From: Thermacetogenium phaeum DSM 12270
GTDB lineage: Bacteria > Bacillota > DSM-12270 > Thermacetogeniales > Thermacetogeniaceae
NCBI RefSeq assembly: GCF_000305935.1
Contig: NC_018870.1
Location: 2,279,001 to 2,343,000 of the forward strand
DNA: 64,000 nt
Direction: 5' to 3'
This document shows positions 45,189 to 63,374 of the stretch, piece by piece. A program made the translations under genes and the position numbers. Within the stretch, counting starts at the first letter, position 1. Each line of letters begins with the position of its first letter. A model generated the notes under the pieces. The model ran no database searches. It was not told the origin of the DNA and saw only the letters and a program-made list of their open reading frames with translations.

Positions 45189-45488
45189 GCCGTTTTTCAG
45201 GCTCTTATTTATTTTTTACATTTTGCATCAATACCACGCACTCAACATGGAACGAGCCGCTTGGATTGATGTCTTGGGCTGTTTTTTGAACCTTGCGTTC
45301 GTGGGAATATATCAATGGGTTTTTGGGCATTTTCCCCGAAAACGAACGTTCAAGGGAACAAATCAACTTTTTCAAATAAGCATCTGCTTATTTCCTGTTC
45401 TTTTACGATTTATTGATTTGCCCTTAATTTTTTCTTGAAGTTTCATCATCTTTATAGTGTGTAATACCAGTCAAGTGAAATAAAGACT
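45189..45488. other. Composition boundary, no gene
   Basis: A 71-aa plus-strand frame (45223-45438) has no ribosome-binding site or family resemblance. From here rightward the DNA is clearly more AT-rich than the preceding 45 kb, marking the edge of acquired DNA. Confidence 0.45.
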
Positions 45489-47756
45489 CTAGGCCAAAGC
45501 CTTTATGAATTCAACAGCTATTTCAATCCTATCTTTGTCATCAGTTTCCTTTAGCCAGTACTCATTTTTAGAATTAGCGATAGCAATTAAATTATTAAAC
45601 TCTTGTTTTCCATTCCTCGAAACATAATCTTCAGGAAATTTTACTTTCCAGCCGTCTTTGAGGCTTTCCAGAGTTATATTATTTCTTAATTTCAGCGGAC
45701 TAAGATCACTGTATATACCATAGCACTCATTAACATTACAAATGGTTTTATCTGCAATTTTCAAAGCGACCGTCCTGACATATGGATTGATGTGGTAAGC
45801 CAGTAGCGAGTTTCCATTAAGTTTTCTCAACTCATATTCATTTAGCCATGCATAAAGATTTTTTTTATTATCAACAAACCCTCCATATTTTATAAAGTAA
45901 TATCTCCAATCCCTTTTTGCTTGTTTTAAATAATCAATAATTATATTTTTCAATTTCTCTTCTGAAGTGGAACCCTTTATTGTAATATATTTACATATAA
46001 ATTCCTTTAGTATTTCTTTGATTTTCTGTGATTCGTTTGTGGTCCTTGTAAGAATAATATTCCATTCTCCATCTCCTCCAAAGTACTTTCTTGCACCAAG
46101 TTGACTGTAACCTATAATAACAGAATAATCTCCTATCGAAAGTAAAGCTTTTATAACGGTTGAACTATTGTTTGACCATATGTCAGTTATAATTGAATCC
46201 AAATCTATAGCGGGGTTTCCTACAACTATTTCCAAAACATTATCAATACATCCTTTAAATAATGGATTGTCTTCTAGTTTATGAATTTTTTCTTTTAAAT
46301 TTATATTATTAACAATCAGTGTAGCCTTTTTTATTTCCGAATCTACGGAATCTTTACTAAATCCAGGCATACTGAATCCCTTTTGAGTTAATATTTGATA
46401 AACATTTTGATTTTGTATAAGCAAGTCAGTCACATCTTTTAACTGTCTCTTCATAAAGTCAAAACGCAAATTGCTTGTATATCTGGTATTAACCGCTTGA
46501 CGTACTCTCATCAGCAGATTTCGAATAACTCTTAAAAATTCCACTAAATCAACACTATAACTGTACTGATTTAAAAAAATACAACGTTTTAGTAGTGAAT
46601 AAAGCAATATTTTTTCTGCTATTCCAAAAGAATCACCCTTTAAACACCTTTTCCAAAGATTACTTTTACCATCAAAAATGACCAGCTTACCTTTTTCATA
46701 TTTTTCTGAAAAAATGTTGTCAATAAATTTATCCGGATCCATTTGAATTTTTATCCAAAAATCAAGAGAATCTATTAAGAATTCAATGTTCTCCTTCCTG
46801 CTATATACAGATTTTATCAATTCATAATTGATTTTAGGTACATTATTTTCATTATATAAAAATGGATTTGTTGTAGGTAATACATTCTGGTTTTCAACAT
46901 AAAGCATTTCTGTAATAAAATATATATATCGCATAAAAGGATTATCGATAGTATTGGCTTCTTTATACTTCCAGAAAACATCTGTCCAGGCGTTATCTAT
47001 CTTTAAAGAAAAATCCAGAAGCTTTTCTGGCAACACATCATCAATTATCTGAGTAAATTTTGCTTTAAAGTTTTCAAAATCCGTTAAAGGTTTTCCTCTA
47101 GCATTCATTTTTATGTACAAGTTATCAGTTAAGCCAAAGTTTTTAAGTTCCAAAAATCTAAATGTTATTGGAGGATCTGAATTAATATCACGTATTAGTT
47201 TTTCAAAGCAATCTTGAGTATCCCTAAAAGTCAGATGAATATCATCAAGCATTGTTAGCATTGATTTTATAGTTGGATCTTTTATCCATGACATATAAAA
47301 CCAGTGAGCATCTTTAATTAAATCAGATATTTTATCATTTTCTTTGCCAAGATCATATTTAACACCTTTTTCTACTAGCGAATAGCAGAAGTCCCGAGAG
47401 CTTATTCTGGTCTCATAAGTAAATTTTGAAAGTATACCTTTTATCTTGCTAGTTTTATTTTCCTTTGTGGCAAGATACCAATGTAATAAAAAGAGAGTGG
47501 TCAATCTCTGCTGTCCATCTAATGGCAGTAATACCTTATCCCCTTCTCGTTCTTCTATAGAACCGTATACAAAATCAAAATCTAATGTATTGCTCTCATT
47601 AACTATTGCATTATAAAGGCTTTCAAGAAATTCCTTCCTTATTTCTGGTATTTTATCAACATTTCTTCCTTGGGCATAATCTCTCTGTATAATTGGTATT
47701 TCAATTCTATACTCATTTATTAGCTTCCAAAATGTATACTTAGTTGTTTGCATCAC
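45489..47756 (-). CDS. DUF262 domain protein without HNH, second subunit of the defence cassette
   Basis: This 755-aa protein has an N-terminal DUF262 (ParB-like) domain with IPIIQRDYAQGR (20-31) and the signature DGQQRLTTLFLLHWYL (80-95), the site shown in relatives (GmrS, SspE) to couple NTP hydrolysis or modification sensing. The long rest is helical and has no HNH, PD-ExK or other nuclease motif I can see. The start at 47756 overlaps the upstream DUF262-HNH gene by 17 bp. AT-rich codon use differs from the chromosome on the left. It is the last gene of the cassette. Confidence 0.85.
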   Translation of the reverse strand: MMQTTKYTFWKLINEYRIEIPIIQRDYAQGRNVDKIPEIRKEFLESLYNAIVNESNTLDFDFVYGSIEEREGDKVLLPLDGQQRLTTLFLLHWYLATKENKTSKIKGILSKFTYETRISSRDFCYSLVEKGVKYDLGKENDKISDLIKDAHWFYMSWIKDPTIKSMLTMLDDIHLTFRDTQDCFEKLIRDINSDPPITFRFLELKNFGLTDNLYIKMNARGKPLTDFENFKAKFTQIIDDVLPEKLLDFSLKIDNAWTDVFWKYKEANTIDNPFMRYIYFITEMLYVENQNVLPTTNPFLYNENNVPKINYELIKSVYSRKENIEFLIDSLDFWIKIQMDPDKFIDNIFSEKYEKGKLVIFDGKSNLWKRCLKGDSFGIAEKILLYSLLKRCIFLNQYSYSVDLVEFLRVIRNLLMRVRQAVNTRYTSNLRFDFMKRQLKDVTDLLIQNQNVYQILTQKGFSMPGFSKDSVDSEIKKATLIVNNINLKEKIHKLEDNPLFKGCIDNVLEIVVGNPAIDLDSIITDIWSNNSSTVIKALLSIGDYSVIIGYSQLGARKYFGGDGEWNIILTRTTNESQKIKEILKEFICKYITIKGSTSEEKLKNIIIDYLKQAKRDWRYYFIKYGGFVDNKKNLYAWLNEYELRKLNGNSLLAYHINPYVRTVALKIADKTICNVNECYGIYSDLSPLKLRNNITLESLKDGWKVKFPEDYVSRNGKQEFNNLIAIANSKNEYWLKETDDKDRIEIAVEFIKALA

Positions 47757-49425
47757 TATTCACCTCCGCTTGATTAGGCAAATATTTCTGTAAAGTATGT
47801 ATTATCTCATCATAGTAATCCTTCCTGTCTTCAGGACCCCAAAAATGCAAATGTGATGCATTCTTACTATAATACTTCAAAAATACATTTCTAGTACAAA
47901 TAGGGATAAAATAGCCTTCCTTATCCATTTTTATAATAATATCACGCTTTACATCAAAGAATGAATTGCCAAGTCTGCTATTTAAGTCCTTATCCAGTAG
48001 AGTTAGGTTATTTATTAAATGCATATCATCACTAAATTGGTCTTTAAAACAGTTCTGAACTTCTTCGAATAATTTATTAAATAATTCAGCACTTATATTA
48101 TCCTCATTTATAGACTTCATTCTTTCAATGACTTCTTTGTATTTGTTTGCATTAATTCTTTCTAAACTTTTTATATGATCCTCAATCCACGCCATCCACT
48201 GTTTTACTGTACTCAAACCGTCAGTATTCTGGGCGTGAATGTGTTCAATGCTCCATTTTCCTCTTTTATAAGAATTAAAAGAAAAACGATAATTGTGTGT
48301 TTTCATTCTAAGTATTGTTTCTATATTAAATAGTAGAAGTACTTTTTTAATTTCATTCGAGTTCTTTTCATAATCCAGTTCTGATATCTTATAATTAACG
48401 TGTTGCCTGATTTTGTTATCAATATATTTTCTAAACTCAGTTTTGCTTTTTCCTTCAGCTGCATCTTTGAGTTGCTCAATTCTCTCTCCGCAAGTTACAA
48501 GATAACCTATTAAATGGAATAATTCCCTGTCATTAAACCAATCTTCAAATGTTAAAAAGTAAGCCTTAACTTCATCCCAAATCTCTTGAACACTGCGTTG
48601 CCTTAATCTTTCATTAAAATACCTAAAAGTATAAAAGTCATCCCCTCTTGAACTTTTCTTAGCCATTGCATTAAAAATATATTCGATTCTTGTTGGCATA
48701 TCATTAAATTCTTTATTAATAAAGCTCCAAAACTCGTCATTTTGAAGAGTATATTCAATTCTGTCCCACTCACTAGCTATTTCTAATTGTTTTAACCTAA
48801 AAGTGTCATTATCGTTATTATTCTTGTTTGATTTTTGTAAAAATAATGCTTTTATAAGTTCCGCATTTGTAAGTGGTATTTTCCCGATGTTAAGCCTAGT
48901 AAAAATATTTATGGGATTAGAACCATCATTAACTTCATACCAGATTATTTTGGTAAGCTTACCTAATGCAATGCTAAATTCATCTCTAACAGTGTATTCT
49001 GATTCAACATTTTCTTTATACTCAAACCATTCTTTGATAGTTTTATATGCCTGTCCTATAAAAAAGTAATCAATATTTGATGTATTTGATACATCGATAT
49101 TCTGTAGAAATTCTTTGCTTTTTTCTCTTGTCTCAAATTCTATGTCATATCTTTTTCTACCTAAAAAATACAAAATTATGTAGATTGTAGTTAATCGTTG
49201 CTGTCCGTCAATTACCTCCCACTTGTCGCCATTTTTCTTTACTACTATAGGTTGCAAGCAATAAAACTCATCTTTTTTTCTTTCTTGTTGGGAGAATTCC
49301 CAAATATCATCGAGCAGTTCTGTTACTTGGCGTTTTTCCCACCTATATCCCCTTTGGTATGAAGGGATAAGGAATTTTTCTTTTATTATTTCATTAATTG
49401 ACAACAACTTAATTTCGTTTTCCAT
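47740..49425 (-). CDS. DUF262-DUF1524 (GmrSD/SspE-like) HNH nuclease
   Basis: This 561-aa protein joins an N-terminal DUF262 domain (IPSYQRGYRW at 20-29, DGQQRLTT at 73-80) to a C-terminal DUF1524 HNH domain (WSIEHIHAQN at 391-400, then LINNLTLLDKDLNSRLGNSF). Single-chain proteins of this plan cut foreign DNA carrying or lacking modifications, as in GmrSD (glucosylated hmC) and SspE (phosphorothioate). It is the second gene of the cassette, 33 bp behind the Phd-HARE gene. No dnd/ssp modification genes are in view. Confidence 0.9.
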   Translation of the reverse strand: MENEIKLLSINEIIKEKFLIPSYQRGYRWEKRQVTELLDDIWEFSQQERKKDEFYCLQPIVVKKNGDKWEVIDGQQRLTTIYIILYFLGRKRYDIEFETREKSKEFLQNIDVSNTSNIDYFFIGQAYKTIKEWFEYKENVESEYTVRDEFSIALGKLTKIIWYEVNDGSNPINIFTRLNIGKIPLTNAELIKALFLQKSNKNNNDNDTFRLKQLEIASEWDRIEYTLQNDEFWSFINKEFNDMPTRIEYIFNAMAKKSSRGDDFYTFRYFNERLRQRSVQEIWDEVKAYFLTFEDWFNDRELFHLIGYLVTCGERIEQLKDAAEGKSKTEFRKYIDNKIRQHVNYKISELDYEKNSNEIKKVLLLFNIETILRMKTHNYRFSFNSYKRGKWSIEHIHAQNTDGLSTVKQWMAWIEDHIKSLERINANKYKEVIERMKSINEDNISAELFNKLFEEVQNCFKDQFSDDMHLINNLTLLDKDLNSRLGNSFFDVKRDIIIKMDKEGYFIPICTRNVFLKYYSKNASHLHFWGPEDRKDYYDEIIHTLQKYLPNQAEVNSDANN

Positions 49426-49458
49426 AAAAATATCCCCCTACTCTTTTTTCTTTCAAAA

Positions 49459-49869
49459 TTATGATTGCTTCAGCCTGATAATATTACCCGGAAGAGCTTC
49501 AAACATATCCGGGTAATGCCCACACCTTGCCCTAATCTGAGTATACTGTGCTTTCTTCCCGTTTTTCTGCAAATACAACTTACGTTTATATATTTCATCT
49601 GCAAGTTCGGATGCGTGCATAGTTTTGTTATCAGCCTCTGATAAAACTATTTTCATAGCTTCCTGAAGTGTATAGTTAGCATGCTTGTCTGCGATATTTT
49701 CATCAACTATGCCCTTTTCATCGTATTTCAGCACAATATAAGCAGGCTTATTATCTTTAAGAAGAACAACTTTTCCGTTCTTTTCTACAACTGAAAAAAC
49801 ATGCTCCAGATCTGTTCGTAATGAATCAAAAGGAATTAAGCTATCTATTTTTACGTCCATATTTTTCAC
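49459..49869 (-). CDS. Phd/YefM-like N-domain fused to a HARE-HTH winged helix
   Basis: This 136-aa protein begins with a Phd/YefM-like segment (IPFDSLRTDLEHVFSVVEKN, GKVVLLKDNKPAYIVLKYDE; residues 12-51) and ends with a HARE-HTH domain (TLQEAMKIVLSEADNKTMHA, SELADEIYKR, IRARCGHYPDMFEALPGN; about 67-134). HARE-HTH modules occur in restriction enzymes and chromatin proteins and are proposed to read DNA modifications. It leads the cassette, so it may act as a repressor, an antitoxin or a recognition subunit. Its domain pairing is unusual. Confidence 0.78.
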   Translation of the reverse strand: MKNMDVKIDSLIPFDSLRTDLEHVFSVVEKNGKVVLLKDNKPAYIVLKYDEKGIVDENIADKHANYTLQEAMKIVLSEADNKTMHASELADEIYKRKLYLQKNGKKAQYTQIRARCGHYPDMFEALPGNIIRLKQS

Positions 49870-49949
49870 CTCTACCGTCTAGGTATGTTACCATGATTAT
49901 ACATCGAATTGGCCTTTTTGTCTATATATTTGTTTATATATTTGTATAA

Positions 49950-49994
49950 AAAGAAATGCCGCCAATTAAGAAGGTTTCCTCCTCAACTGGCGGC
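49950..49994 (-). terminator. Intrinsic terminator after the recombinase genes
   Basis: GCCGCCA and TGGCGGC (49958-49994) pair around a 23-nt loop. On the minus strand ATTTCTTTTTAT follows. It closes the three-recombinase transcript before the defence cassette. Confidence 0.75.
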
Positions 49995-50009
49995 AATCTT
50001 ATTACAATC

Positions 50010-51578
50010 TTATAGATTCACTTCTATTTCTAACCCAGACTTAAACTCAACCACTAACCTATCATCATATACAATCACTTTTTCAATCAGTTTTCTGACC
50101 AGTTTATCATCAAACTCCGTAATATCACCCGTTTGCGTGTTAAGGAAGTCCGTCATCTCAGCAATCCGATCCCGCTTATCTTTGCGGAGAGCATTTCTCG
50201 AAAGAGTTTCTTGCCTTAGATCACGTAGTCGGTAAATTTCATTGACAATATTATCATAGCTTTCCTTTGAATTTGCCTTTTGGATCAACTCGGTTTGGAG
50301 TTCTTCCAGCCTTTTATCAATATCTGCTGTACTCTCATCCAAATCCGCGCTTAGTACGGTTTCAATATTCTTCTTCAGTATGGCCAGAAAAGAGTTTTTT
50401 CCGCTTACCGCTACATTAATGGCTTCTATAATTTTCTCTTTAAGCGTATCTTCAAGTATAGTGGAAGCGGTACAAAACAAACCAGTGTTTTCTAATCGGC
50501 TGACGCATCTCCATACAATTGATTTCTTTCCTCGGTTATTCCAATGAACCCTGCGGAATATTTCATGACAGTTGCCGCAAAAGACCATCTGTGATAAAGG
50601 ATGATTATTGCTATAGTTTCTCTTCTTTCCGTTCTTACTTATATGCACACATCTTCTTTTGACAAGCTGTTCCTGAACCTGCATAAAGATTTCACGCGGG
50701 ATTATGGGCTCATGGCTGTTTTCTACATAGTATTGAGGAACTATACCGTTATTAGGTACCCTTTTCTTCGATAAAAAATCTACCGTATAGGTTTTCTGCA
50801 ACAGCGCATCACCGATATATTTTTCATTCCTCAAAATCTTATTGATGGTGCTGGTATGCCATCTGTGATTGCCTGCACCTGTCAGAATTCCGTCAGCTTC
50901 CAGACCTCTTGCTATCTGTAGCATACTGGAACCTTCAAGGTATTCTCTGTAAATGCGTTTAACGATCTCTGCTTCTTCAGGTACGATAACTAAATTGCCA
51001 TCCTTATCCTTTGTATAGCCAAGAAACCGGTTGTGATTAATATGGATTTTTCCTTGCTGATATCGGTACTGAATACCCAGTTTTACATTCTGGCTTAACG
51101 ATTGGCTTTCTTGCTGCGCCAAAGAAGCCATAATGGTCAGCAGGATTTCCCCTTTGGAATCCAATGTGTTTATATTTTCCTTTTCAAAGTAAACTGGAAT
51201 ATTTTTTTCTTTAAGCTGCCTTATGTACTTTAGGCAGTCCAGCGTATTTCTTGCAAAACGGCTGATAGATTTCGTAATTATCATATCGATTTTGCCCTGC
51301 ATACATTCTTCTATCATCCGGTTAAACTCTTCACGCTTTTTCGTGTTGGTTCCAGTAATCCCTTCATCCGCAAATATGCCGGCTAACTCCCATTCCGGAT
51401 TGCTTTTAATGTAATTGGTGTAATGTTCGATCTGTGCTTCATAACTGGTTGCCTGCTCTTCGCTGTCCGTAGAAACACGGCAATAGGCTGCCACCCGAAG
51501 CTTAGGCAATTCCTCGGCCTTTGCACTATTCCCAATTCGCTTACGAGCAGGAATTATCGTAACATTCCTGGTTGTCAT
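50010..51578 (-). CDS. Large serine recombinase, copy 1
   Basis: This 522-aa site-specific recombinase has the catalytic resolvase domain with [12 protein letters not shown] (Ser36), a recombinase domain ([20 protein letters not shown], then [20 protein letters not shown]) and a zinc ribbon-coiled coil ([11 protein letters not shown]). It is 38 bp overlapping with the short recombinase-domain gene upstream. Three recombinases in a row at a prophage end are typical of clostridial phages, in which one or more acts as integrase/excisionase. Active residues are intact. Confidence 0.93.
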
Positions 51579-51999
51579 CTAAAATCACCTCGCTCTTGAT
51601 AAGACTATAAGCATACTCTGCCTGCTGAAATGGATCATCGTATAGATTATCTGGCATTGAAGCATGAAACCTAAAATTCAGGCATTTCTTTTCATTTCCT
51701 TTATGTTCATAAATCCTGCCAAGCGCCTCAGCTCGTCTGCGTCTTTCAAGTTGTGCTTTTTCGAATGTGTCCCTGCTGATAATTGGCGGATAAAATTTAT
51801 CCTCAACATACCGTTTATCTGTCAGCATTCTTGCAATAGATGTATGGCAGCGCTTAATACCCGCGTTTTTGGCCGCTTCAGTTAAAGAAAGCCCGGAAAG
51901 ATAAGCCCCAAACAGCTCCTTTATCTTAACCGCTTCCTTTTCGTTAACAACAGCCTTGCCGTTTTGAATGGTATATCCAAAAGGTATATGGCTCATCAT
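51541..51999 (-). CDS. Short recombinase-domain protein lacking the catalytic domain
   Basis: This 152-aa protein has only the recombinase domain that follows the resolvase core ([40 protein letters not shown], then [20 protein letters not shown]). The catalytic serine domain is absent, so it cannot cut DNA alone. The ATG at 51999 overlaps the upstream recombinase stop as ATGA. It may be a DNA-binding accessory that decides direction, or a relic kept by coupling. Confidence 0.8.
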
Positions 52000-53573
52000 T
52001 TCATCAACCTTTCCCTTAAGTTCAACCCGCATTTCATTTTGAAACCTATTTCCTCCTGTGAAAACACAATGATTTCGCGGGTAAAATCCTCAAATATTTC
52101 GATATCAAATGCATCAATCTGCTTTTCAGCCTTCGTTGCAAATTTAAAAAGCTTTTCTACCTCAACAAGAGTAGTCATGCCTCCATCGATTACGCGTTTT
52201 AATGCTTCTCTTTGTCCTTTTAATAAAGCCGCTTCTTTGAGCAGCTCATTTTTCTGTGTATTAAAAAGAGCGGGTTCCAGGTATCCTTTGGCCATAAGTC
52301 CCATAATCACCTGAACCCGCTCTGTATTTTCTTTGATTTTAGTTTCCAGTTCCTGAATCTTAGTTATGTTATCTGAGTAATTTGATTTCTTCAAGCTTTG
52401 CAACAATGGTTTTAGAATGAACTTATGACCGAAAATAAGCTTATTAATCATAACAACAAAGGCCTGATGGATTGCATCCTCTCTTACAAACTTCATGGAA
52501 CAGCTTGATGCGTCCTTTATGTGCTTTGTGCAGCACCATGCAATATATTTACAGTCACCGCTGCCATGAATTCGACGCTTAAAATTGCTGCCACATTCTG
52601 CGCATTTGATTTTCCCCGAGAAAGGGTAGCGGTTTTGATATTTACTGCTTCCCTTGATTACGCCTTTTTCTTTACCTCTTTGCTTCAATATTTCTTTGAC
52701 GGCTTCAAATTCCTCATGGGATATAATGGCTTCATGATGATCTTTTATCATGTATTGATCTTTTTCCCCACGATTATAATGCCGCTTAAAATTCTCATCT
52801 GTATAGGTCTTTTGCAGAAGGACATCCCCGGTATATTTTTCATTGCTAAGGATACCGCGGATAGTGGTCGCTGTCCAGTGTGAACCTCTCTTTGTTGGGA
52901 TTTTATCCGAATTTAGCCCATCTGCAATTATCTGTGTGCCTTTACCGTCCAAAGCCTCGGAAAAAATCCGCTTTACGATTTCAGCCTGTTCTTTATTGAT
53001 AAATAGCTTTCCATCCACATAATCGTAACCATAGGGAGGATACGAAATTTTGTATGTTCCGTTTTGGAACCTGCGCCTGATAGACCACTTACTATTTTCT
53101 GCAATGGATAATGACTCGTTTTCTGCAAGGCTGCTCAAAATTGTCAGCACCAATTCGCCTTCCATGCGCTGCGTGTTTATATTCTCTTTCTCGAAATAGA
53201 TGAAAACACCGAGATCAGTAAGTTTTCGCACCATCTCAATGCAGTCGGTTGTATTTCTGGCAAATCTGCTGACTGACTTGGTTATAATAAAGTCAATTTT
53301 CTTGTTTTCACAATCTGCAAGCAGCCTTAAAAGTCCAGTTCGGTTTTCCTTTTTTGTGCCTGAAATGCCTTCATCATAGTAAATCCCTGCAAATTCCCAA
53401 TCAGGATTTGCTTTTATATAGGATTCATAATGGTCCTTTTGCGCTTCCAGGCTTGCCATTTGTTCATCACTGTCTGTTGAAACCCTGCAATAAGCCGCTA
53501 CCCTCACCTTTGGCTTGAAAGCTTGGAGAGCATTGTTTCCATCAATCCTTGTTACCTTTCTCACTGTTTTCAC
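51996..53573 (-). CDS. Large serine recombinase, copy 2
   Basis: This 525-aa protein has [12 protein letters not shown] (catalytic Ser32), GTKKENRTGLLRLLADCENK and VSRFARNTTDC in the catalytic core, a recombinase domain (FQNGTYKISYPPYGYDYVDG), then the zinc ribbon CAECGSNFKRRIHG and coiled coil. It is complete. The upstream spacer is only 52 bp from the SHOCT-like gene. It is paralogous to copy 1 rather than identical, so two targets or a heteromeric integrase are possible. Confidence 0.93.
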   Translation of the reverse strand: MKTVRKVTRIDGNNALQAFKPKVRVAAYCRVSTDSDEQMASLEAQKDHYESYIKANPDWEFAGIYYDEGISGTKKENRTGLLRLLADCENKKIDFIITKSVSRFARNTTDCIEMVRKLTDLGVFIYFEKENINTQRMEGELVLTILSSLAENESLSIAENSKWSIRRRFQNGTYKISYPPYGYDYVDGKLFINKEQAEIVKRIFSEALDGKGTQIIADGLNSDKIPTKRGSHWTATTIRGILSNEKYTGDVLLQKTYTDENFKRHYNRGEKDQYMIKDHHEAIISHEEFEAVKEILKQRGKEKGVIKGSSKYQNRYPFSGKIKCAECGSNFKRRIHGSGDCKYIAWCCTKHIKDASSCSMKFVREDAIHQAFVVMINKLIFGHKFILKPLLQSLKKSNYSDNITKIQELETKIKENTERVQVIMGLMAKGYLEPALFNTQKNELLKEAALLKGQREALKRVIDGGMTTLVEVEKLFKFATKAEKQIDAFDIEIFEDFTREIIVFSQEEIGFKMKCGLNLRERLMK

Positions 53574-53897: not shown

Positions 53898-54902
53898 TTA
53901 TTCCGGCAATTTGAGAACTTGTCCGGGGTAAATAGTATCTGAAGTCAGGCCATTGAGTTTCTTAATCTCCGGATATCTTGTTCCTCTACCGAGTTCTTTT
54001 TCTGCTATTCTCCATAAGGTGTCGCCTTTTTGCACTGTATAGGTTCTATTGCCCTTGTTATCAGGAATGCTGTTTACAATTACAAGGTTTTCTTTTGCTA
54101 CCCAAGTGTTTATGCCTGCAATCTCTTGACCGCCGGATTTCTTAACCTTTTTGCCAAGCAATACACATTCTTTGCCGCCTTTTATGACCGGCTTGCCTTT
54201 GTATAAAGTCTGTGTGACCCTGTGGTAATAGTCATTTTTGACCCACGTTGGAACTTCCACACTGCCGGGGTAGTAATTCTTTACACTGTCCTTAAACTCC
54301 ACCATATCTCCAATTCCAATATCAGTATTGGTATCTGTACTGTTCTCCAGCGCTTTTTTTACTGCTTTACGGAAAGTATCCATATTCTCACCATGCTTGG
54401 GAAACCAGTGCATCACATCAGCATGGTTGCTGGCAATACCGAGCTTATATCCCTCGGAGTGGCAGATGATGTCATTCTCATTAAGACCGTACTTCTTGCA
54501 GAGCATAACGCAGAGTTCAACCGCATTCTGCCACGCTTTTCGGAAGTAGGCCTCCTGCTTAGCTGTATCATAGCCGACCATTACCGACCCGGATTTATAC
54601 GAAAACCCAGCAGGCTCACAGATTTCAAAGCCAATATGGGTATTGTTGGCTGCTCCTCCCGCATGCCACCCGCGATGATCCCAAGGCAGGTATTGCCAAA
54701 TCTCTTTATCGTCTACAAAAGCATGTACACATACCTGCCTATTTGTTTCGCCGGCTTTATAGGATTTGTTCCAGCGGCTAAACCAGTCGGCCGCCATTAC
54801 ACCCGGCACAGCCGTCGAATGTACCATGATTCCTTTAGGCGTGATTTTGCGGCCTGCTGTATAGCAATCGTTTCGCGTCATGTATTTAGTAAAAAGCTTC
54901 AT
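53898..54902 (-). CDS. Endolysin: N-acetylmuramoyl-L-alanine amidase with LysM
   Basis: This 334-aa lysin has an amidase_2 zinc domain (residues 15-180) with the ligand His28 in [32 protein letters not shown] and [21 protein letters not shown] middle SH3-like binding region (about 195-280) follows, then a C-terminal LysM ([20 protein letters not shown], residues 288-334). It cleaves the Mur-peptide link to release phage. The start overlaps the holin stop by 4 bp. Confidence 0.93.
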
Positions 54903-55318
54903 TTCTTTTCATCCTCCTCATTTGAGCGGCCATGCAGTTGTTCCAATGCGTTCTTCAGCTTTTCAGGAATGGGCAGTCCTATATGTGCTGCATTCTCAAG
55001 AATTGAAACTCCTTCATTACTTAGGTAAAAGAAAATCACCGCTGTCCGGATTGCCCCGCCATTGCCGAGCACCTGGCTGTCGATTATGTGTCCCACACCC
55101 ACAAGTACAAAAATAAGTACCTTCTTAAAGATGCCCTTGGCCCCGATTTCACTCGAAAGCTTTCTGTCTACAACGGCACACATCACTCCGGTCACATAGT
55201 CAATAGTTACAAAAGCGACGAGAGCATATAAAAATCCATCCAGCCCTCCAAGAAACCAGCCAAGAAATCCGCCAATAGCAGTAAAAACCGCCTGTATCCA
55301 GTTCCATACTGTTTTCAT
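54899..55318 (-). CDS. Phage holin (toxin secretion/lysis holin family)
   Basis: This 139-aa membrane protein has about three or four helices, a central charged segment ([20 protein letters not shown]) and a charged tail ending NEEDEKK. It matches phage holins of the toxin-secretion/lysis family. It sits directly before the endolysin, as expected for a lysis cassette. Confidence 0.9.
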
Positions 55319-55354
55319 TGTCTTAACCCTCCGTTCAACTTGAATTTTGCATAT

Positions 55355-55387
55355 AAAAAAGCGCCCTGCCTTAAAGCAAAGCGCTTT
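55355..55387 (-). terminator. Intrinsic terminator between tail and lysis genes
   Basis: AAAGCGC (right arm) and GCGCTTT form the stem, with TTTTTTAT following on the minus strand. It may separate the structural transcript from the lysis module. Confidence 0.7.
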
Positions 55388-55419
55388 AACTAAGTTTTTA
55401 GCCTATATTTGTAAAGTTA

Positions 55420-58398
55420 TTATCCCATCTTCCTTAACTTGAAATTAGGCCTGTAGACGTTTATCCTTTTCCCCTTCTTCCAGAACGAAAAATCGTCATC
55501 GTCCAGCTTCCACAGGACGATGCTCCGTATTTTCTTTTCATGAAGCCATTCCAGCAATTCGCCTATTGTATCCCCAGCAGCAAACCATGTTTCTCCATCG
55601 GTGCTCTTAGCTTTCCACTGCTTGTCCTCGTAGTCTTTCTCCGGCAAAAGTATTCTTCTTCCTGCGATCCATGTTGCAAGCTCCAACAGATTCTGCTCTG
55701 CCGTCATCTCCTCACTCCACAAACAACCGAACAGCCCAATGCCGCCTACGAGCTTATGCCTTGGAATAAGTTTCAGGAGCGTCATATACCGACGCTTGAA
55801 TTTTTCTAAATTCGTAATAGGCCCGGGTTTAGTCCAAGGCCCATGGTCAAGATAGGTCATGGGAGATATTTTATCCGCCCACTTTGCTATTTCGCAGTAA
55901 TCAAACCATGCATCCCACTGGCTGTCACCGGAATAAGGATAAGGTGCTGCCACCATCAGTTCATAGCATTTGCCCATGCCAGTATGGAGTTTTTGAGCCA
56001 GCTCCTTAAACCATGCGCTTGCAGCTTCCCTGTCTGTCTCTTTTACTTCCTCAAAATCGATACACACTCCATCCCAGCCTTCATTGATAAGGGTATCTGC
56101 TATAGCCTGTATACTTACTTGAGGATTTAAAAAAACCTGCGATGCTATATCCGGATCCCAACCATTCTCTCCGTAATTTCCAAATACAGCATAAGCCGGT
56201 TTACCCATGCTCTGCCACCATGTCTTGTCCGGGTTTATATCCCCTGCCAAATTTAAATCCCCTGTAAAGTTATATCCGTCAAATATAGCTATATCAATAA
56301 TGTCTTTGTTTTCCCGCAAGGAATAGCAGCCCCATTCCCGGTTTATTACATAGCCGTATATGGAAAGTGGGGGCTTGGGTTTTTGAGGGCAGAACATTTC
56401 AAAGGTATGGAGTTTAATCAGGTCAGCAAAAGGCGGCATCAGAGCATCGTTTAACATCATCACGCGGGGAATTTCATCCATGGCAGTGATGGCAGCGGGG
56501 TTGTGGTTCTGGCGGGTATCAAGCACTCCTGCCTGGATGGTAAACATGGCCTCCATGTTGTGGCTACTTTGATTCCCTCTCAATGTTTCATTATTGGCCC
56601 CGAAAGGAAAAGCCAACGTCCATACCGGCGGGATATATGCCCCTTCCGGGTAGCTGCTCTCTTCGCTCACAAACCACAGGTCGGGATTGACCGCCGCCTC
56701 CTTGACTCCACCGGCCGCCCTGCTGTTCCAAAAACCTGTTGCCTCTGAACTTTCAGGATCATATCTCCCGGAAATGCAAAATACCCCTTCTACCTCCCCG
56801 CCTTCATTCCTAGCGCTGTTTCGAGTGATAAACTTAAGGCAGTATTCATGTCCTGCCTGAATAAAACAGGTTTTCTGATCATCAAATTCTATTTCCAGTG
56901 TGTGAATTTCCCGCCATTTCTGGTTAGGAGTAAAGCCCTTTCTTAACAGAGTAAAATTGCCAGGAACGCCTTCGTTCCAGTCGCCGATATATACGTCACA
57001 CAAGGCTACATAGCCAATGCCAAAGGGCATAGCTGGATTAAAAACAAGCTTCCTAGTGGTAAAGCTTCTATCAAATACTACTTTTAAGCAGGTTTCCACC
57101 TTTTCAAAGCTGCCAGCCGGGCTTTCCCCGATTTTCTCTCCGGTTACCGGGTCAAGAATATCCTCCGTTTCTGTCCAGGAAGCGCCAAAAAGCGGCATAG
57201 CAATTGAACTATTAGGGGTTTCAATATTTTCAATAGGATCCTGCCTTTCAAACGAAACACAATCCCCTGCGTATTCTTCAATCGTCCTTTTCAGCCTCGC
57301 TGTATCCGCATCGATTCTGGCAATATACGCATTTTCATTTTCTTTACTTCCAGTACCGTCTGAAAGTATAAGCATTGGAAGTCCATGATGTATTGCCCAT
57401 GATCCTACCCTGTCATAATCACTCTCGTAACTGTTGGTAGCACAGTTTTCCACATTAAACAGGCTAGGGTCCATAAAGAGACGCAGCTCCTGCTGTTTGT
57501 CAGAAATGTTTTTAGTAAAAAATCGCAGGTTATACCAATTCCCCGCTTGAACAGTATAAGGCTGGTCAAAACGGATGATATCGTACCTTCCTACCGGCCA
57601 GGAAATGCCGAGGCTCGCATCGTAAAGGTCCAACGGTTCCTGCTTTGGATGCCAATTTTCCGCTACTACTGTTTCACCTGCTATCCCGGCAGCACCTGTC
57701 TTTCCTCCGATGCTCACCCGCACTACAAGATCATAACAAGTTTCAGTAGGAAGATGTGTGGCAAATTTTAAGAGGATTCGGTTAACAGTCATTGTCTTGT
57801 CTGCATAAAATCCAACATAACTTTCTATGGGGAAAAGCTCACCGCTTGGACTTTTTCCGGTACCAGCAATGGGCAGGGCCCAGTATTGTGAAAGAGGATA
57901 GTTTTCCCCTTGATTTAAATACGCATATATGCCATTATCCTGCCAAAGGCGGCAAGCAAAAGCGCTTTCACTGTTCCCTTCCGCATCATCCAGGTCAAAA
58001 TAGTGAAGCCCGTATGAATGGCTGCCCAGAGTACAGAGCCCGCTTTCAACCATATCTTTAAGCTGGGCAAAGGTCATAAAATCCTGTTTTTCAACAGAGC
58101 CACCGATAACAAACACCGTAAAAGGCATGTTATATTGCTTTAATACCGGATAAGCATAGCGGTACACCCCGGCTCTCGCATCATCAAATACAATAAGCAC
58201 AGGCTTTGCCGGAAGGTCATTTTCATCAAGCAATCCTTTCCAATAGTCCACATAATCCTTTATATGGATTGCCTTATAACCGTTCTCATAAAGCCATTTA
58301 ATATGCCACGCAAACTGCTCCGGGGTGTTGTAGTACCACTGCTCAGTCCCTATTTCGTGATAGGCAAGAACCGGGATATACCAAGCTTTGTCCTGCAT
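55420..58398 (-). CDS. Phage tail enzyme with PgaB-like CE4 deacetylase and C-terminal GH18-like domain
   Basis: This 992-aa protein has an N-terminal polysaccharide deacetylase (IPVLAYHEIG, LIVFDDARAGVYRYAYPVLK, LGSHSYGLH) with the H-S-x3-H triad of PgaB/IcaB rather than H-S-x2-H. A long beta-rich middle holds two concanavalin-like or fibre domains (about 180-560). The C-terminal third (about 670-930) is GH18-like, with WDGVCIDFEEV around residue 784 keeping the D-x-E pair. The ATG at 58398 is chosen because a proper CE4 start follows. It overlaps no neighbour and sits at the tail tip position. Confidence 0.8.
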   Translation of the reverse strand: MQDKAWYIPVLAYHEIGTEQWYYNTPEQFAWHIKWLYENGYKAIHIKDYVDYWKGLLDENDLPAKPVLIVFDDARAGVYRYAYPVLKQYNMPFTVFVIGGSVEKQDFMTFAQLKDMVESGLCTLGSHSYGLHYFDLDDAEGNSESAFACRLWQDNGIYAYLNQGENYPLSQYWALPIAGTGKSPSGELFPIESYVGFYADKTMTVNRILLKFATHLPTETCYDLVVRVSIGGKTGAAGIAGETVVAENWHPKQEPLDLYDASLGISWPVGRYDIIRFDQPYTVQAGNWYNLRFFTKNISDKQQELRLFMDPSLFNVENCATNSYESDYDRVGSWAIHHGLPMLILSDGTGSKENENAYIARIDADTARLKRTIEEYAGDCVSFERQDPIENIETPNSSIAMPLFGASWTETEDILDPVTGEKIGESPAGSFEKVETCLKVVFDRSFTTRKLVFNPAMPFGIGYVALCDVYIGDWNEGVPGNFTLLRKGFTPNQKWREIHTLEIEFDDQKTCFIQAGHEYCLKFITRNSARNEGGEVEGVFCISGRYDPESSEATGFWNSRAAGGVKEAAVNPDLWFVSEESSYPEGAYIPPVWTLAFPFGANNETLRGNQSSHNMEAMFTIQAGVLDTRQNHNPAAITAMDEIPRVMMLNDALMPPFADLIKLHTFEMFCPQKPKPPLSIYGYVINREWGCYSLRENKDIIDIAIFDGYNFTGDLNLAGDINPDKTWWQSMGKPAYAVFGNYGENGWDPDIASQVFLNPQVSIQAIADTLINEGWDGVCIDFEEVKETDREAASAWFKELAQKLHTGMGKCYELMVAAPYPYSGDSQWDAWFDYCEIAKWADKISPMTYLDHGPWTKPGPITNLEKFKRRYMTLLKLIPRHKLVGGIGLFGCLWSEEMTAEQNLLELATWIAGRRILLPEKDYEDKQWKAKSTDGETWFAAGDTIGELLEWLHEKKIRSIVLWKLDDDDFSFWKKGKRINVYRPNFKLRKMG

Positions 58399-58402
58399 AG
58401 CA

Positions 58403-59764
58403 TCACGCTCCCGCAGGGTCGGTGCAGAAGGCAAGAAGATTAATCTTGTATCCAGGAAGTGAAGCGGGCCCCCCGATAACCTTCACCCTTGCACCCGTAT
58501 ATATTAAGTTATTGTACTCGTCCAATCCTGTTATTGCTTCAGTTTGAAGCATAAATGCCGATAGAGGTTCATTCGCTTCGGCATTTACTTTCTGAAGAGA
58601 TGCGAAGATCACCGGCTGCTGATAGTAGCTGTTGGAAAAAGTAAACTCTACATTTTGCCCATAGTCTTTCATGCCATATTCGGCCAGAGTATCTTCTTCA
58701 ATCAGTCTTGCCCTGTCCCATACATCCTTGCTCTCCTCCACCGTTTGCAAAAGTTTAGCCAGGTTGTATTCCATCTGCCGATAGCTTAAGGGTACGGTGT
58801 CAATGACCATTTCCTTTTCCTCCGGCCAAAGCGGGTATTCGGTCACTTTCACTACGGTGCTTTTCGCTTCAATTCCAAGGTCCTCATCTTTGATCCATAC
58901 GGTGTCCCCTAATGAAAGGGCATAGTCTTCATACCCGACAAGGATCGACAAATCAGCAACTTTAACTATATACGAACACCTGGGTTGTTTGATAAGTTCA
59001 ATCTTTGCAAGAGCTGCCGCATAAAGCCGGTCCCCGCTTGTGATATCAGTTTTCCAAACATAGTCGTGTATGCCGTAAGCAGCGGCAGTATCTGCGTCAA
59101 TGTAATCAAGTCCTGTTCCATTAACTCCTGCAGTAGTGAGATTATCTTTGCCTAGGGCATACAGCCGGGTGCCAAACTCCCTGCGGTCAACTGTCCGCTC
59201 CAATTCCTTTAAGTTTTTCCGGTAGGAGAGCCTTACTCCGTTATCTGTGCCCAAACTGTTCAGTAAATCTACCTTTTTGCTCTTCGTGTCCCAGGCAAGC
59301 ACCCCGCCCCAGAGCTTTGGAACTTCCAGCAAAAGCTCCAGACGGGATTTGTATTCCTGTTTTCCCATCGAGGCCGTCCCTTCAACTTCTACCGTACCCA
59401 CTGTCCATCCGAAACGGTTGCCGCCAAGAATTTCTGTGAGGGCTTCTGCCGCTGTCCTTACGTTTAATTCAAGGGAGGGAAGTATATCTCCCAGCAGCTC
59501 GGTGGATGCAATTTCTGCCGTAATGCGGGCGTAATTTCCTTTGGCGTCCTTAATGTCCGTAACTGTTTGGATCAGATAATCCTGCCCGTCCCATTCCAGA
59601 AACATACCCGGGGTGATTGCTGTTTTATCGGGAACAAGCTCGATTTCCATTTGGGACAGTTTATTGATTTCATGTTCTACCGAAGCGCTGAGCACATCCT
59701 TGAGATATCCTAAAAGTTCCCTGTTTGGAGAATACAGCTTAAAGCCATCAAACACTAGAGCCAC
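58403..59764 (-). CDS. Phage tail protein (prophage tail/minor structural family)
   Basis: This 453-aa protein is of the siphovirus tail-tip type that follows Dit (ReqiPepy6 gp37-like/prophage endopeptidase tail). LSQMEIELVPDKTAITPGMF, YLIQTVTDIKDAKGNYARIT and a C-terminal beta domain fit. It joins the tape measure/Dit side to the enzyme downstream. The start overlaps the Dit stop by 10 bp, and its stop is 4 bp before the next ATG. Confidence 0.8.
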   Translation of the reverse strand: MALVFDGFKLYSPNRELLGYLKDVLSASVEHEINKLSQMEIELVPDKTAITPGMFLEWDGQDYLIQTVTDIKDAKGNYARITAEIASTELLGDILPSLELNVRTAAEALTEILGGNRFGWTVGTVEVEGTASMGKQEYKSRLELLLEVPKLWGGVLAWDTKSKKVDLLNSLGTDNGVRLSYRKNLKELERTVDRREFGTRLYALGKDNLTTAGVNGTGLDYIDADTAAAYGIHDYVWKTDITSGDRLYAAALAKIELIKQPRCSYIVKVADLSILVGYEDYALSLGDTVWIKDEDLGIEAKSTVVKVTEYPLWPEEKEMVIDTVPLSYRQMEYNLAKLLQTVEESKDVWDRARLIEEDTLAEYGMKDYGQNVEFTFSNSYYQQPVIFASLQKVNAEANEPLSAFMLQTEAITGLDEYNNLIYTGARVKVIGGPASLPGYKINLLAFCTDPAGA

Positions 59765-60969
59765 CTCCCGTATATGGTTGTCTCTGTCTCTGCAATTCCT
59801 GCATCAGCCAAAAAGGTTAGTGAGTTATTGCCAGATGCCAGTTCGAAGAAATCTCCTTCCATATCCTTCAACACATTAATCCCGTTCACTTTTGCCGTCC
59901 AATGGTCAAGATCAAGTATTAGTTCATCGCCTGCATAAAGGTTTCCACTATACCTCAAAAACCTGCTTCCCAGCTGAATTCCCGGCTTTATTACTACATT
60001 TGGGTTATCAGAGAGAAGTTCCACTTCATCTATCCAGCTTGCATAGCTTTGCGCAACCCTTGCCTCAAAGAACACAAACACAGTACCGCCTGGGTCGGTC
60101 GGAATAACCGTTCCGGTAATCTCATTCCAACTGCCGGCTGTCCCGGACAACATTGTCCCTGATATCTGAGGATACTGCCAGTTGGTAGTTTCTTCTTCCG
60201 CATAGACTGTAAGTCCGTTATTAACCTGCGACTTTACTCTTGCCTTAAAAGGATACGCATGCCCTGCCTGGTAGCCTGTCATGGTGAAGTAGCAGCGAGG
60301 GATGGCGCTGGTTGTATTGTTCTTCTGCAGCCTGCCCGAAGCAGCTCCGGCATATTTTTCCGTTGTATCCCGGGTGAGGCTGCCGGAGGACCCCTCGGTT
60401 GCCTGAAAGATCCAGCCAGTGGTGTCTTTTTCAAAGCCGGGGTTGGGGCATAAGTTATCAGGAAGCGCCGCATTATTGCGGATGGTGATTACAGGGACTT
60501 CCGGACAAGTTCCAGGATTGTTCAAAACAAGTTGTTGTCCTCCTGTTATACCGCTAAAAAGATAATGTTGCCCGTCTATTGAATAATAAAATGGGTCCGG
60601 GCAGAGGAAGGTAAGGCTTCCCTTTCCGACGGTTGCAATTCTTTCAAGCTCGGTAGTGCCCAACAGCACTGCATTTACGGCTTTATCCGGAATGTCCGGC
60701 AGAATTAGCTGTCTAGGGCCCTTCCCGGGATCCAGCCATGCTGCTGCCTCAAAAATTCTCATTCGAAGGTCCTGCCGGTTTGAGCAAACAAAGGCTATAT
60801 CGATTTTAATCTCCCTAGCTCCCAAGTGATAACCCTGGTATATTGCACCGCATCGTCCCGGAAGTTCAGTTATTCTGCTCTGGATTCCCGGCAAAATTGA
60901 ATCATGCACTTTCTGAAGCAATATTTTTTTCTCTCTGCTTCTTATACCGTCATAAATAAACTCACTCAT
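59755..60969 (-). CDS. Distal tail protein (Dit) with inserted carbohydrate-binding-like domain
   Basis: This 404-aa siphovirus Dit has its N-terminal belt domain (IQSRITELPGRCGAIYQGYH, residues 29-150) and C-terminal galectin-like part (about 325-404, FLRYSGNLYAGDELILDLDH). Between them, residues about 170-320 form an insert beginning NLCPNPGFEKDTTGW with a beta sandwich pattern like CBM4/9 modules. Evolved Dits use such inserts for host surface binding. Its start overlaps the tape measure stop by 1 bp. Confidence 0.84.
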   Translation of the reverse strand: MSEFIYDGIRSREKKILLQKVHDSILPGIQSRITELPGRCGAIYQGYHLGAREIKIDIAFVCSNRQDLRMRIFEAAAWLDPGKGPRQLILPDIPDKAVNAVLLGTTELERIATVGKGSLTFLCPDPFYYSIDGQHYLFSGITGGQQLVLNNPGTCPEVPVITIRNNAALPDNLCPNPGFEKDTTGWIFQATEGSSGSLTRDTTEKYAGAASGRLQKNNTTSAIPRCYFTMTGYQAGHAYPFKARVKSQVNNGLTVYAEEETTNWQYPQISGTMLSGTAGSWNEITGTVIPTDPGGTVFVFFEARVAQSYASWIDEVELLSDNPNVVIKPGIQLGSRFLRYSGNLYAGDELILDLDHWTAKVNGINVLKDMEGDFFELASGNNSLTFLADAGIAETETTIYGRWL

Positions 60970-63155
60970 CAGATTTGCACCCCTTGAGCACGCAGGTTTT
61001 GCAGGGATCGCCTGCTTAGAATTTCGGATATTGTAGGTGTAATTACCCTGGCAATTTCCTTGGCATCAAGATATATGGGTACTTCAATTGCGATTCGCGA
61101 CGGACTAAATAATCCTGTTGCGTCTGCGCTGGTAAACCCAGGCGATATATTAAAATCTGTCGGCACTGCATTTTGCATATCGTCCGCCACTCTGGCCATA
61201 GCCTTGTCAAATCCCTCACCAATACCCAGTGCCATATTGCCGCCAATGCCTTCAAAAACAGTGGACGGAGATCTGATTCCAAGAAAATTCTTTACTCCAT
61301 CAACAATACCGGAAAAGAAACCGGAAACCTTATCCTTAATCCAGCTACCAAGGCTTTTAATACCTTCCCAGATGCCTTTTACAATGTTCTTACCAATCTC
61401 AACCACTGAAACAACCGCCTTGCCCAAACCTTCTATAATAGCCGCAACAATCTGAGGTAAAGACTTTACTAGTTCTGGAATGGCTTTCACTAGCCCGGCA
61501 GCAAGCTGTACGATAAGCGTAATTCCCAATTCTATGATCTTCGGCATATTGTTCGTCACAAAGTCAATGATTGTTGTAATTATCCTCGGCAGTGCTTCAA
61601 TTAGTTCTGGCAATGCATTTAAAAGTCCCTGCGCCAGTCCTTGAATCAATGTAAAAGCAGCTTCAAGGATTTTGTCCATATTATCCAGCAGCCCTTGCAC
61701 AATGGTGATCACTGCTTGAACCGCTGCTGGAATTAGCTCAGGTAATGCTTCTCCAAGCCCCATTACCAACGCTGTGATTAGCTGTACCGCCGCATCAATG
61801 AGTAAAGGCAGGTTATCAATGAGTGTACCTGCAATGGTCATGACTGCATCTACTGCCGCCGGGATCAGCTCCGGCAGCAGGCTCAAGAGAGTTTGAAGCA
61901 CCTGAGAGAACAATTCAGTTACAGTTTGCAACAGCACGGGAAGCAGATCTTTGACTGCTGAGATAATTGCACCGGTTGCCTCCGGCAGAGCAGCCACTAT
62001 ATTTTCCAAAACCGGTACAATATTTTTAACTACAGCCTGAAAGGCATCCACAAGATTTTGTGTTAGGTTCGTCATATCAGCGTTCGCATTGCCAAGTCCT
62101 GCTATAAATGAACTTAGAGAGGCTTGTAAAAGACCAATGGAACCGCTGATGGTCTGGGTAGACTCTCTTGCGAAGTTGCCAGCATACTGTTCGGTTTTTT
62201 CAAAAAACATCTGCATGGCGATCTCGGCCTTTTCGGCATTGGTTGCGCTATTCCAGGCAAAATCCAGCCCTTTTGCAAGAGCATAAGCTTCGATGGTAGT
62301 GGCGTTCATGGCGACGCCCAGATTATCCATCATGGTGAAGTTACCCTTGGCTGCGCCAGCGATGGATTCCATGGCAGTCTGCATGTCAATGCCCATAACC
62401 GAAGCCATATCTGCCGCCCGTTGCATGGCCTTCTCAGTAAGCTCCAGACTTTTTTGCTGATCGACACCAGCACCCTGAAACAGTGCGCCCATTTTGTTGG
62501 CGGTGGCAAGGTACTCGGATTGGGACAAGCCCAGATTCTTGTAGGCTTCTTCTCCCGTTTTTTGGATACGTGCAGCATATTCTCCAAACACAGCTTCAGA
62601 ACCGCCAAGGTTCTGCTCAAGCTCACCAAACTGCTCCACGACCTCTTTTCCCAGCTTGATGGCAGCCGCGCCCGCTGCGGCCGCTGCAGCACCCATAGCC
62701 GCGCCAACACCTTTAAGAACGCTGCCCAGCTTCTCAAATTTCGAGCTGGATTTTTCGGCATTGTCTCCACTTTCCTTCAATTCGTCCCCAAGTTCATCTG
62801 CACTTTCAGCAGACTGTTCGAGTTCGCGCTCCATTTTGTTCAGCTCGGCTTTGGCGTTGTTGAGCTGTATCTGCCAGGACTGCGTCCGCTTGTCGGTCTC
62901 CCCGAAAGAGGAGGCGGCGTTGGCAAGCGCTTTCTCCAAAGTAGCTATTTTTTCTTTCTGCAATTCGATCTCTTTGTTAAGCACCTTGTTTCTTGCAGTA
63001 ACAGCTTCAACTGACTTATCCTGCTTATCAAACTGAGATGCGACCAGGTTCATTTCGCTACCCAGTACCTTAAAACTTTGGTTGATCTCACGAATGGCGT
63101 TTTTAAATTCCTTTTCGCCTTCAATCCCGATCTTCAGGCCAAAATTGTCTGCCAC
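60969..63155 (-). CDS. Phage tail tape measure protein
   Basis: This 728-aa protein sets tail length. A coiled-coil N-terminal region (residues 15-130, VEAVTARNKVLNKEIELQKE) is followed by a small-residue hydrophobic stretch (GAAMGAAAAAAGAAAIKLGK), the TP901-type core, then a very regular repeat region (LIDNLPLLIDAAVQLITALV type, residues about 400-620) with repeated PELIPAAV- and ITIVQGLLDNM-like units. These helical repeats of about 40 aa are typical of short tape measures. Confidence 0.92.
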   Translation of the reverse strand: MADNFGLKIGIEGEKEFKNAIREINQSFKVLGSEMNLVASQFDKQDKSVEAVTARNKVLNKEIELQKEKIATLEKALANAASSFGETDKRTQSWQIQLNNAKAELNKMERELEQSAESADELGDELKESGDNAEKSSSKFEKLGSVLKGVGAAMGAAAAAAGAAAIKLGKEVVEQFGELEQNLGGSEAVFGEYAARIQKTGEEAYKNLGLSQSEYLATANKMGALFQGAGVDQQKSLELTEKAMQRAADMASVMGIDMQTAMESIAGAAKGNFTMMDNLGVAMNATTIEAYALAKGLDFAWNSATNAEKAEIAMQMFFEKTEQYAGNFARESTQTISGSIGLLQASLSSFIAGLGNANADMTNLTQNLVDAFQAVVKNIVPVLENIVAALPEATGAIISAVKDLLPVLLQTVTELFSQVLQTLLSLLPELIPAAVDAVMTIAGTLIDNLPLLIDAAVQLITALVMGLGEALPELIPAAVQAVITIVQGLLDNMDKILEAAFTLIQGLAQGLLNALPELIEALPRIITTIIDFVTNNMPKIIELGITLIVQLAAGLVKAIPELVKSLPQIVAAIIEGLGKAVVSVVEIGKNIVKGIWEGIKSLGSWIKDKVSGFFSGIVDGVKNFLGIRSPSTVFEGIGGNMALGIGEGFDKAMARVADDMQNAVPTDFNISPGFTSADATGLFSPSRIAIEVPIYLDAKEIARVITPTISEILSRRSLQNLRAQGVQI

Positions 63156-63182
63156 ATAACCGCCTCCTTTCCTGCAAAATTT

Positions 63183-63374
63183 TTAAATTCCGTAAGGTAT
63201 CACATCATCAATGGTCAGCATACGCTTCGGTTTGGACAGTCCTAAAAACTGCTTATGGCACTCCCATAAATCAAGCAGGTATCCAATAGGCATGAGCCAT
63301 ACTTCTTCCTCTGAACGATTAAGCTGGACAGTGCCGTAATATAAAAGCCGAGTGAACGATTCCTCATCGCTCAC
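63183..63374 (-). CDS. Tail assembly chaperone, frameshift extension (gpT-like)
   Basis: This 63-aa frame (VSDEESFTRLLYYGTVQLNR, then PIGYLLDLWECHKQFLGLSK) is the second part of a tail assembly chaperone pair. It has a possible GTG start, but a slippery A AAA AAC in the preceding gene lets ribosomes enter this frame by a -1 shift. The product would then be the G-T fusion. It lies between the tape measure gene and the G-like gene, as in lambda. Confidence 0.78.
   Translation of the reverse strand: MSDEESFTRLLYYGTVQLNRSEEEVWLMPIGYLLDLWECHKQFLGLSKPKRMLTIDDVIPYGI

Follow-up and report, generated by a model that had tools for sequence, protein, structure and literature searches.

The window, meaning the whole 64,000-nucleotide stretch of Thermacetogenium phaeum DNA that was analysed, carries a compact minus-strand locus in which three genes stand between serine recombinase genes and an att repeat. 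The genes and features are listed below.

45226..45246, minus strand: attR core, 21 bp, GTTGAGTGCGTGGTATTGATG, repeated exactly at the 3' end of rlmD, which is 49.6 kb distant
45240..45345, minus strand: conserved element end of 106 bp adjoining attR and reading into the last rlmD codons
45489..47756, minus strand: gene 3, GrwB-like large DUF262-only subunit, 755 aa, with R84 of DGQQR and no nuclease motif
47740..49425, minus strand: gene 2, GrwA/GmrSD-like DUF262-HNH nuclease subunit, 561 aa, with R77 of DGQQR and H395, N473 and N482 of the His-Me motif
49459..49869, minus strand: gene 1, Phd/YefM-like plus HARE-type winged-helix protein, 136 aa, predicted leader and regulator of the cargo slot
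49896..49924, minus strand: promoter-like site before gene 1, TAGACA-17-TATAAT, 11/12 matches
49924-49935, minus strand: operator-like site AAACAAATATAT, in tandem with the next
49936-49947, minus strand: operator-like site ATACAAATATAT, in tandem with the preceding
49957..49995, minus strand: intrinsic-terminator-like hairpin of 18 pairs with a T-run, between the recombinases and gene 1
50010..51578, minus strand: large serine recombinase A
51541..52032, minus strand: small Recombinase-domain-only protein B, 163 aa, between the two large serine recombinases
51996..53573, minus strand: large serine recombinase C
53898..63757, minus strand: siphophage genes for endolysin, holin, tail, Dit and tape measure

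The preliminary description had given three minus-strand open reading frames with a 33-bp gap between genes 1 and 2 and a 17-bp overlap between genes 2 and 3, and these coordinates and spacings were all reproduced; the likely start of gene 1 is the ATG at 49860. Its domain readings of genes 2 and 3 were also borne out by Pfam. GmrSD_N/DUF262 matched gene 2 with an E value of 2.8e-32, and the protein carries IDGQQRLTT and EHIHAQN, its GmrSD_C (DUF1524) match being marginal (E 0.0012, below the cut-off); gene 3 matched DUF262 with an E value of 1e-20, has DGQQRLTT as well and lacks a nuclease domain. With PADLOC, gene 2 was nearest to the HEC-06, Orf5 and SspE models and gene 3 was scarcely detected. 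Another DUF262 protein is encoded elsewhere in the same genome (L002, 2029019-2029738).

For gene 1, the proposed joining of a Phd-like segment to a HARE-HTH was compatible with modelling and left below threshold by Pfam. The AlphaFold model consists of a small antitoxin-like N-terminal domain and a winged-helix C-terminal domain, in agreement with the proposal, and its structure matches were weak, with antitoxin N-terminal domains among them. Both Pfam matches were sub-threshold (Phd, E 0.019; HARE-HTH, PF05066, E 1.5e-4, 22.5 bits against a cut-off of 25.9), and a PDB profile search gave no useful match. The Phd and HARE assignment of gene 1, called Phd-HARE below, is plausible rather than certain. 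Separate Phd/YefM-type antitoxin genes were observed adjoining other loci with two DUF262 genes, namely L185:8460-8711 on a Klebsiella plasmid and L021:5609-6182 in a Bacillota genome, the latter with a ParE-like partner.

The tandem operator-like sites in front of gene 1 are related to ATACANNTGTAT. Sites of the ATACANNTGTAT type with at most one mismatch occur 21 times in 27 gene 1 upstream regions against 0.7 expected, a count inflated by regions that are partly near-duplicates, with about a dozen occurrences independent by eye; such a site occurs once in the whole window. They were not found upstream of gene 1 in L063, L072, L075, L076 and L088, of which L072 is the locus with a near-identical copy of genes 2 and 3.

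The locus is located at one end of an insertion at rlmD. Between attR and the intact rlmD gene no other match to the 21-bp repeat was found, and the GC content is about 55% outside the insertion, about 40-50% inside it and 30-31% in the cargo, that is, in what follows gene 1 up to attR. Phage genes, recombinases and att repeats at both ends, as expected of a prophage cargo slot, are all present, and past the window the phage genes go on with capsid, protease, portal and terminase. The simple picture of one 49.6-kb prophage with rlmD as its border was rejected because an IS21 element, a remnant of recombinases B+A in inverted orientation and Fe-S protein genes lie between the phage genes and rlmD; the insertion is for this reason read as composite, its left end being not necessarily that of the phage proper. 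The inverted second B+A pair was located at genome positions 2364296-2366282 (L081:4296-6282), separated from rlmD by Fe-S/MinD-type genes, and this arrangement suggests that two elements of one integrase family were stacked at the same site. An IS4-type transposase gene lies immediately outside attR (window 43011-43775).

Gene 1 forms part of a prophage-like backbone that runs from lysis genes through the three serine recombinases, a terminator and a promoter with conserved tandem ATACANNTGTAT-type sites to Phd-HARE, after which come the variable cargo and attR in rlmD. About a dozen gene 1 loci stand behind the same recombinase triplet (e.g. L056, L058, L061, L062, L077, L082, L084 and L086), several of them preceded by holin and endolysin genes as well, and in the remaining gene 1 loci the upstream genes are partial, degraded or different. 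The position of protein B was constant across loci. In 14 other Phd-HARE loci the 106-bp element end recurs, whole or partial, on the downstream side of the cargo and at a distance of 2.9-7.8 kb from gene 1. What lies between these conserved parts varies widely, and most gene 1 loci carry unrelated, often defence-type genes: PsyrT/PsyrA (E 4e-274 and 6e-98), Druantia-type DruE (E 9e-183), Mokosh-type MkoA (E 2e-110), HEC-05 (E 2e-232), PDC-S39, Schlafen-type genes, further DUF262 proteins and unnamed genes. In L073 and L076 ordinary genes are found downstream of Phd-HARE.

Two recurrent genes were observed close to Phd-HARE. A family of about 245 aa (EHLLVTIGKARFS) lies shortly behind it in L060:1351-2091, L061:9268-10014, L062:8447-9181, L063:6477-7211 and L077:8364-9098; the L062 copy had no match in Pfam or PADLOC, and the family is a candidate unnamed defence gene. 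At L057:1186-1497, L066:8411-8719, L083:8408-8731 and L088:8411-8725 lies an ORF of 102-107 aa (MNGE.LW...) that either adjoins the Phd-HARE gene end or overlaps it, and that may encode a partner protein. Among the phage genes, the 894-aa terminase large subunit of L080 (5527-8211) has an internal LAGLIDADG match, which is probably an intein.

Prophage defence hotspots, such as those of P2 and P4 phages, likewise combine a phage backbone that stays constant with defence cargo that can be exchanged. The slot described here differs from them in its phage family and recombinases, and in the conserved Phd-HARE leader with operator-like sites that heads the cargo. In streptococci, serine-integrase elements (PMC4701971) also include recombinase triplets and integration at rumA/rlmD, but there the rumA elements have single integrases, the triplets use other targets, and the elements are conjugative whereas the one here is phage-like. 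In the open-access literature, in which not every journal is covered, neither a Phd-HARE leader nor this slot was found described.

Comparison with Tepidanaerobacter EBM-38 (L072) provided direct evidence of cargo movement at the sequence level. Over 4.2 kb spanning genes 2 and 3 the two differ by 2 mismatches, while gene 1 is diverged except for its last 60 bp (78% protein identity overall); similarity begins at a junction inside the gene 1 end, at about 49521, its other limit is the att core, and beyond these limits the sequences are unrelated. From the near-identical pair, the diverged gene 1 and the junction within the gene 1 end it follows that cargo was exchanged, the pair having moved independently of most of gene 1. 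We infer that the conserved flanks serve as recombination sites, so that cargo would be swapped between related elements by recombination at the conserved gene 1 end and the conserved att end. Immediately outside attR, the Tepidanaerobacter locus has CD-NTase-like, E2-like and HNH genes (L020:154-3197), CBASS-like by reading.

Gene 1 would be a DNA-binding protein of Phd/HARE type belonging to the host element, with a terminator-insulated promoter and operator-like sites, which heads any cargo up to attR. Judging from its domain, promoter and position, it probably autoregulates a leader-cargo operon, and operator binding and co-transcription of leader and cargo would be part of this regulation. 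A regulatory role for gene 1 had been one of the options in the preliminary description and is the reading that the arrangement of the slot favours. That Phd-HARE is further a dedicated controller of swappable defence cargo, which binds the tandem operators of its own promoter, silences or times the cargo and perhaps senses the DNA state through HARE during infection, is a tentative proposal that we hold at low confidence.

Somewhat less probable, and in our judgement unlikely, is a toxin-antitoxin logic in which Phd-HARE silences a toxic cargo nuclease and its loss during infection frees the cargo. The Phd/YefM-like N-terminal domain fits such a role, the operator-like sites at the promoter of Phd-HARE recall the way antitoxins autoregulate, PsyrTA, a toxin-antitoxin type defence, is among the cargoes, and over-expression of the two-gene ECOR17 GmrSD is toxic (PMC12373910). 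Against this, neither a known Phd-partner toxin nor any other known toxin family was found adjoining gene 1, and neutralisation of each cargo at the protein level is unlikely because the cargo is structurally unrelated between loci. Transcriptional control of the cargo by Phd-HARE is possible, and with it the toxin-antitoxin logic merges with the preferred reading of gene 1 as regulator.

The three genes had been put forward as a single defence system, and this did not hold. Gene 1 precedes the pair in 3 of 27 pair loci (the window, L072 of Tepidanaerobacter, and L070, a Clostridium MAG with a diverged pair) and is missing from the other 24; the single three-gene system was rejected on this co-occurrence. 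Gene 1 loci came from named genomes (23) and from IMG/VR (10), and no record of gene 1 was found among plasmids or in INPHARED phages. The proposal that HARE modules act as epigenetic readers is in favour of a true three-component system where Phd-HARE recognises or controls together with DUF262 proteins specifically, for example as a reader of modified DNA that hands over the substrate. Phd-HARE also precedes four DUF262 kinds, counted as raw occurrences: the pair, an 851-aa protein (L084, L086 and L087, broken in L065), a 627-aa protein (L075) and the 581-aa HEC-05 (L089 and L090). With 24 of 27 pair loci lacking Phd-HARE, and Phd-HARE heading PsyrTA-, Druantia-, Mokosh- and Schlafen-type cargo too, such a system is decidedly improbable. 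GrwAB of V. cholerae, a two-gene modification-dependent restriction system reported in 2025 in which both proteins are required and phages with modified DNA are targeted, functions in E. coli from its two genes (PMC12137116), which also speaks against a third component.

Genes 2 and 3, on the other hand, stay together where gene 1 does not, so that the expected co-occurrence elsewhere was seen for the pair and was largely absent for gene 1. The gene 3 query against 72,556 plasmids gave 17 matching records; in 10 of 10 neighbourhoods inspected a second DUF262 gene stood directly upstream of gene 3, and the 15 records covering at least 80% of gene 2 were the same 15 that scored best for gene 3. 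The pair was also found in 12 IMG/VR contigs, 2 more Bacillota genomes and 2 named genomes with gene 1, and no INPHARED phage carries gene 3. Across several phyla the order gene 2 to gene 3 and the common strand were constant in 26/26 loci compared, with an intergenic distance of -56 to +100 bp apart from one locus interrupted by an IS, and the inter-locus distances of the two proteins correlate (Mantel r 0.79, 0/5000 permutations as high). Since order and strand are constant, distances are correlated and records are shared, genes 2 and 3 form one unit. In the family alignments the DGQQR and HNH residues are invariant or nearly so, beyond chance, and QR is conserved too; H395 was assigned as the catalytic His of gene 2 from the family alignment.

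As had also been supposed, the unit resembles a modification-dependent restriction pair, and it is not a new one. We filed it as GrwAB-type by architecture, V. cholerae GrwA and GrwB being matched by description and not by sequence alignment, because the gene order, both architectures and the residue positions and spacing are the same or closely similar (PMC12137116). In both systems a DUF262-DUF1524 gene comes first and is adjacent to a DUF262 gene with an extended C-terminus of unknown function, and QR, DGQQR and FxxxN-type motifs are common to both, the last reading Y214xxxN218 in gene 3 with Y replacing F. Gene 2 has the His-Me catalytic H and two N expected of GrwA: R77, H395, N473 and N482 correspond to R81, H431, N521 and N530, with an N-N spacing of 9 in both, and R84 of gene 3 corresponds to R86 of GrwB. 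The H-N spacing is 78 in gene 2 and mostly 64-102 in its family alignment, a range that includes the 90 of GrwA. The pair here differs in that a Phd-HARE gene precedes it, in a prophage slot of a Bacillota genome, and in that it is known from sequence alone.

Among other DUF262 systems, SspE, DndI, BrxU and Eco94GmrSD share the DUF262 NTPase-sensor plus HNH plan. A PDB profile search with gene 2 matched SspE, DndI and BrxU, and the AlphaFold model of gene 3, unreliable past residue 625, has a fold like SspE and DndI with the nuclease motif absent. Unlike the pair, these four are single-protein effectors, and SspE and DndI need phosphorothioation genes. The idea that the pair senses phosphorothioates in connection with a dnd system of its own genome was dropped, as dndC was not found in the T. 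phaeum genome (sspABCD lay outside this search). TgvAB (PMC11411939) and GmrS1/GmrSD2 of E. coli ECOR17 (PMC12373910) likewise consist of two DUF262 proteins, one with HNH and both required, and target modified T-even DNA. That genes 2 and 3 are a homologue of these instead of GrwAB is very improbable: the DUF262/DUF262-HNH composition is identical and gene 2 aligns from end to end with proteins of the TgvB-like kind (hhalign probability 99.9, 22% identity), but in stand-ins picked by synteny (plasmid loci with DUF262 then DUF262-HNH near restriction-modification genes, not V. cholerae) the partner is encoded by the first gene and has 426-446 aa, fewer than the 755 aa of gene 3, gene 3 is no closer to TgvA-like proteins than to other DUF262 domains, gene 2, gene 3, TgvA-like and TgvB-like proteins each fall in their own clade, and the H-N spacing is 78 in gene 2 against 31 in TgvB, so TgvAB identity was rejected on order, size and tree.

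Our main reading, with a probability of about 0.75, is that the window joins two modules, a GrwAB-type pair and a prophage defence slot headed by a regulator. The DNA itself shows that the two genes are paired, how the slot is laid out, how varied its cargo is and where the exchange junction lies. Going by GrwAB, SspE and BrxU as analogues, genes 2 and 3 would bind and hydrolyse NTP and sense modified or hypermodified DNA through their DUF262 domains, both subunits would be required, and the HNH domain of gene 2 would nick or cut the invading DNA. We infer an anti-phage effect of the pair on the same grounds. The pair is an already known system, and the slot is one for which no description was found.

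The GrwAB-type pair now has a place far from Vibrio, among phages and plasmids that belong to several phyla, and these distant pairs help to study why two DUF262 proteins are needed. The Phd-HARE gene with its operator-like sites provides a searchable marker of the slot, and any genes that follow it as far as attR are candidates for a defence system; the slot already yields known types such as PsyrTA, Druantia and Mokosh alongside unnamed families. The regulation by phages of borrowed, potentially toxic defences becomes testable, and if Phd-HARE is indeed a controller of its cargo, these phages would own a standard socket for trading immune systems.
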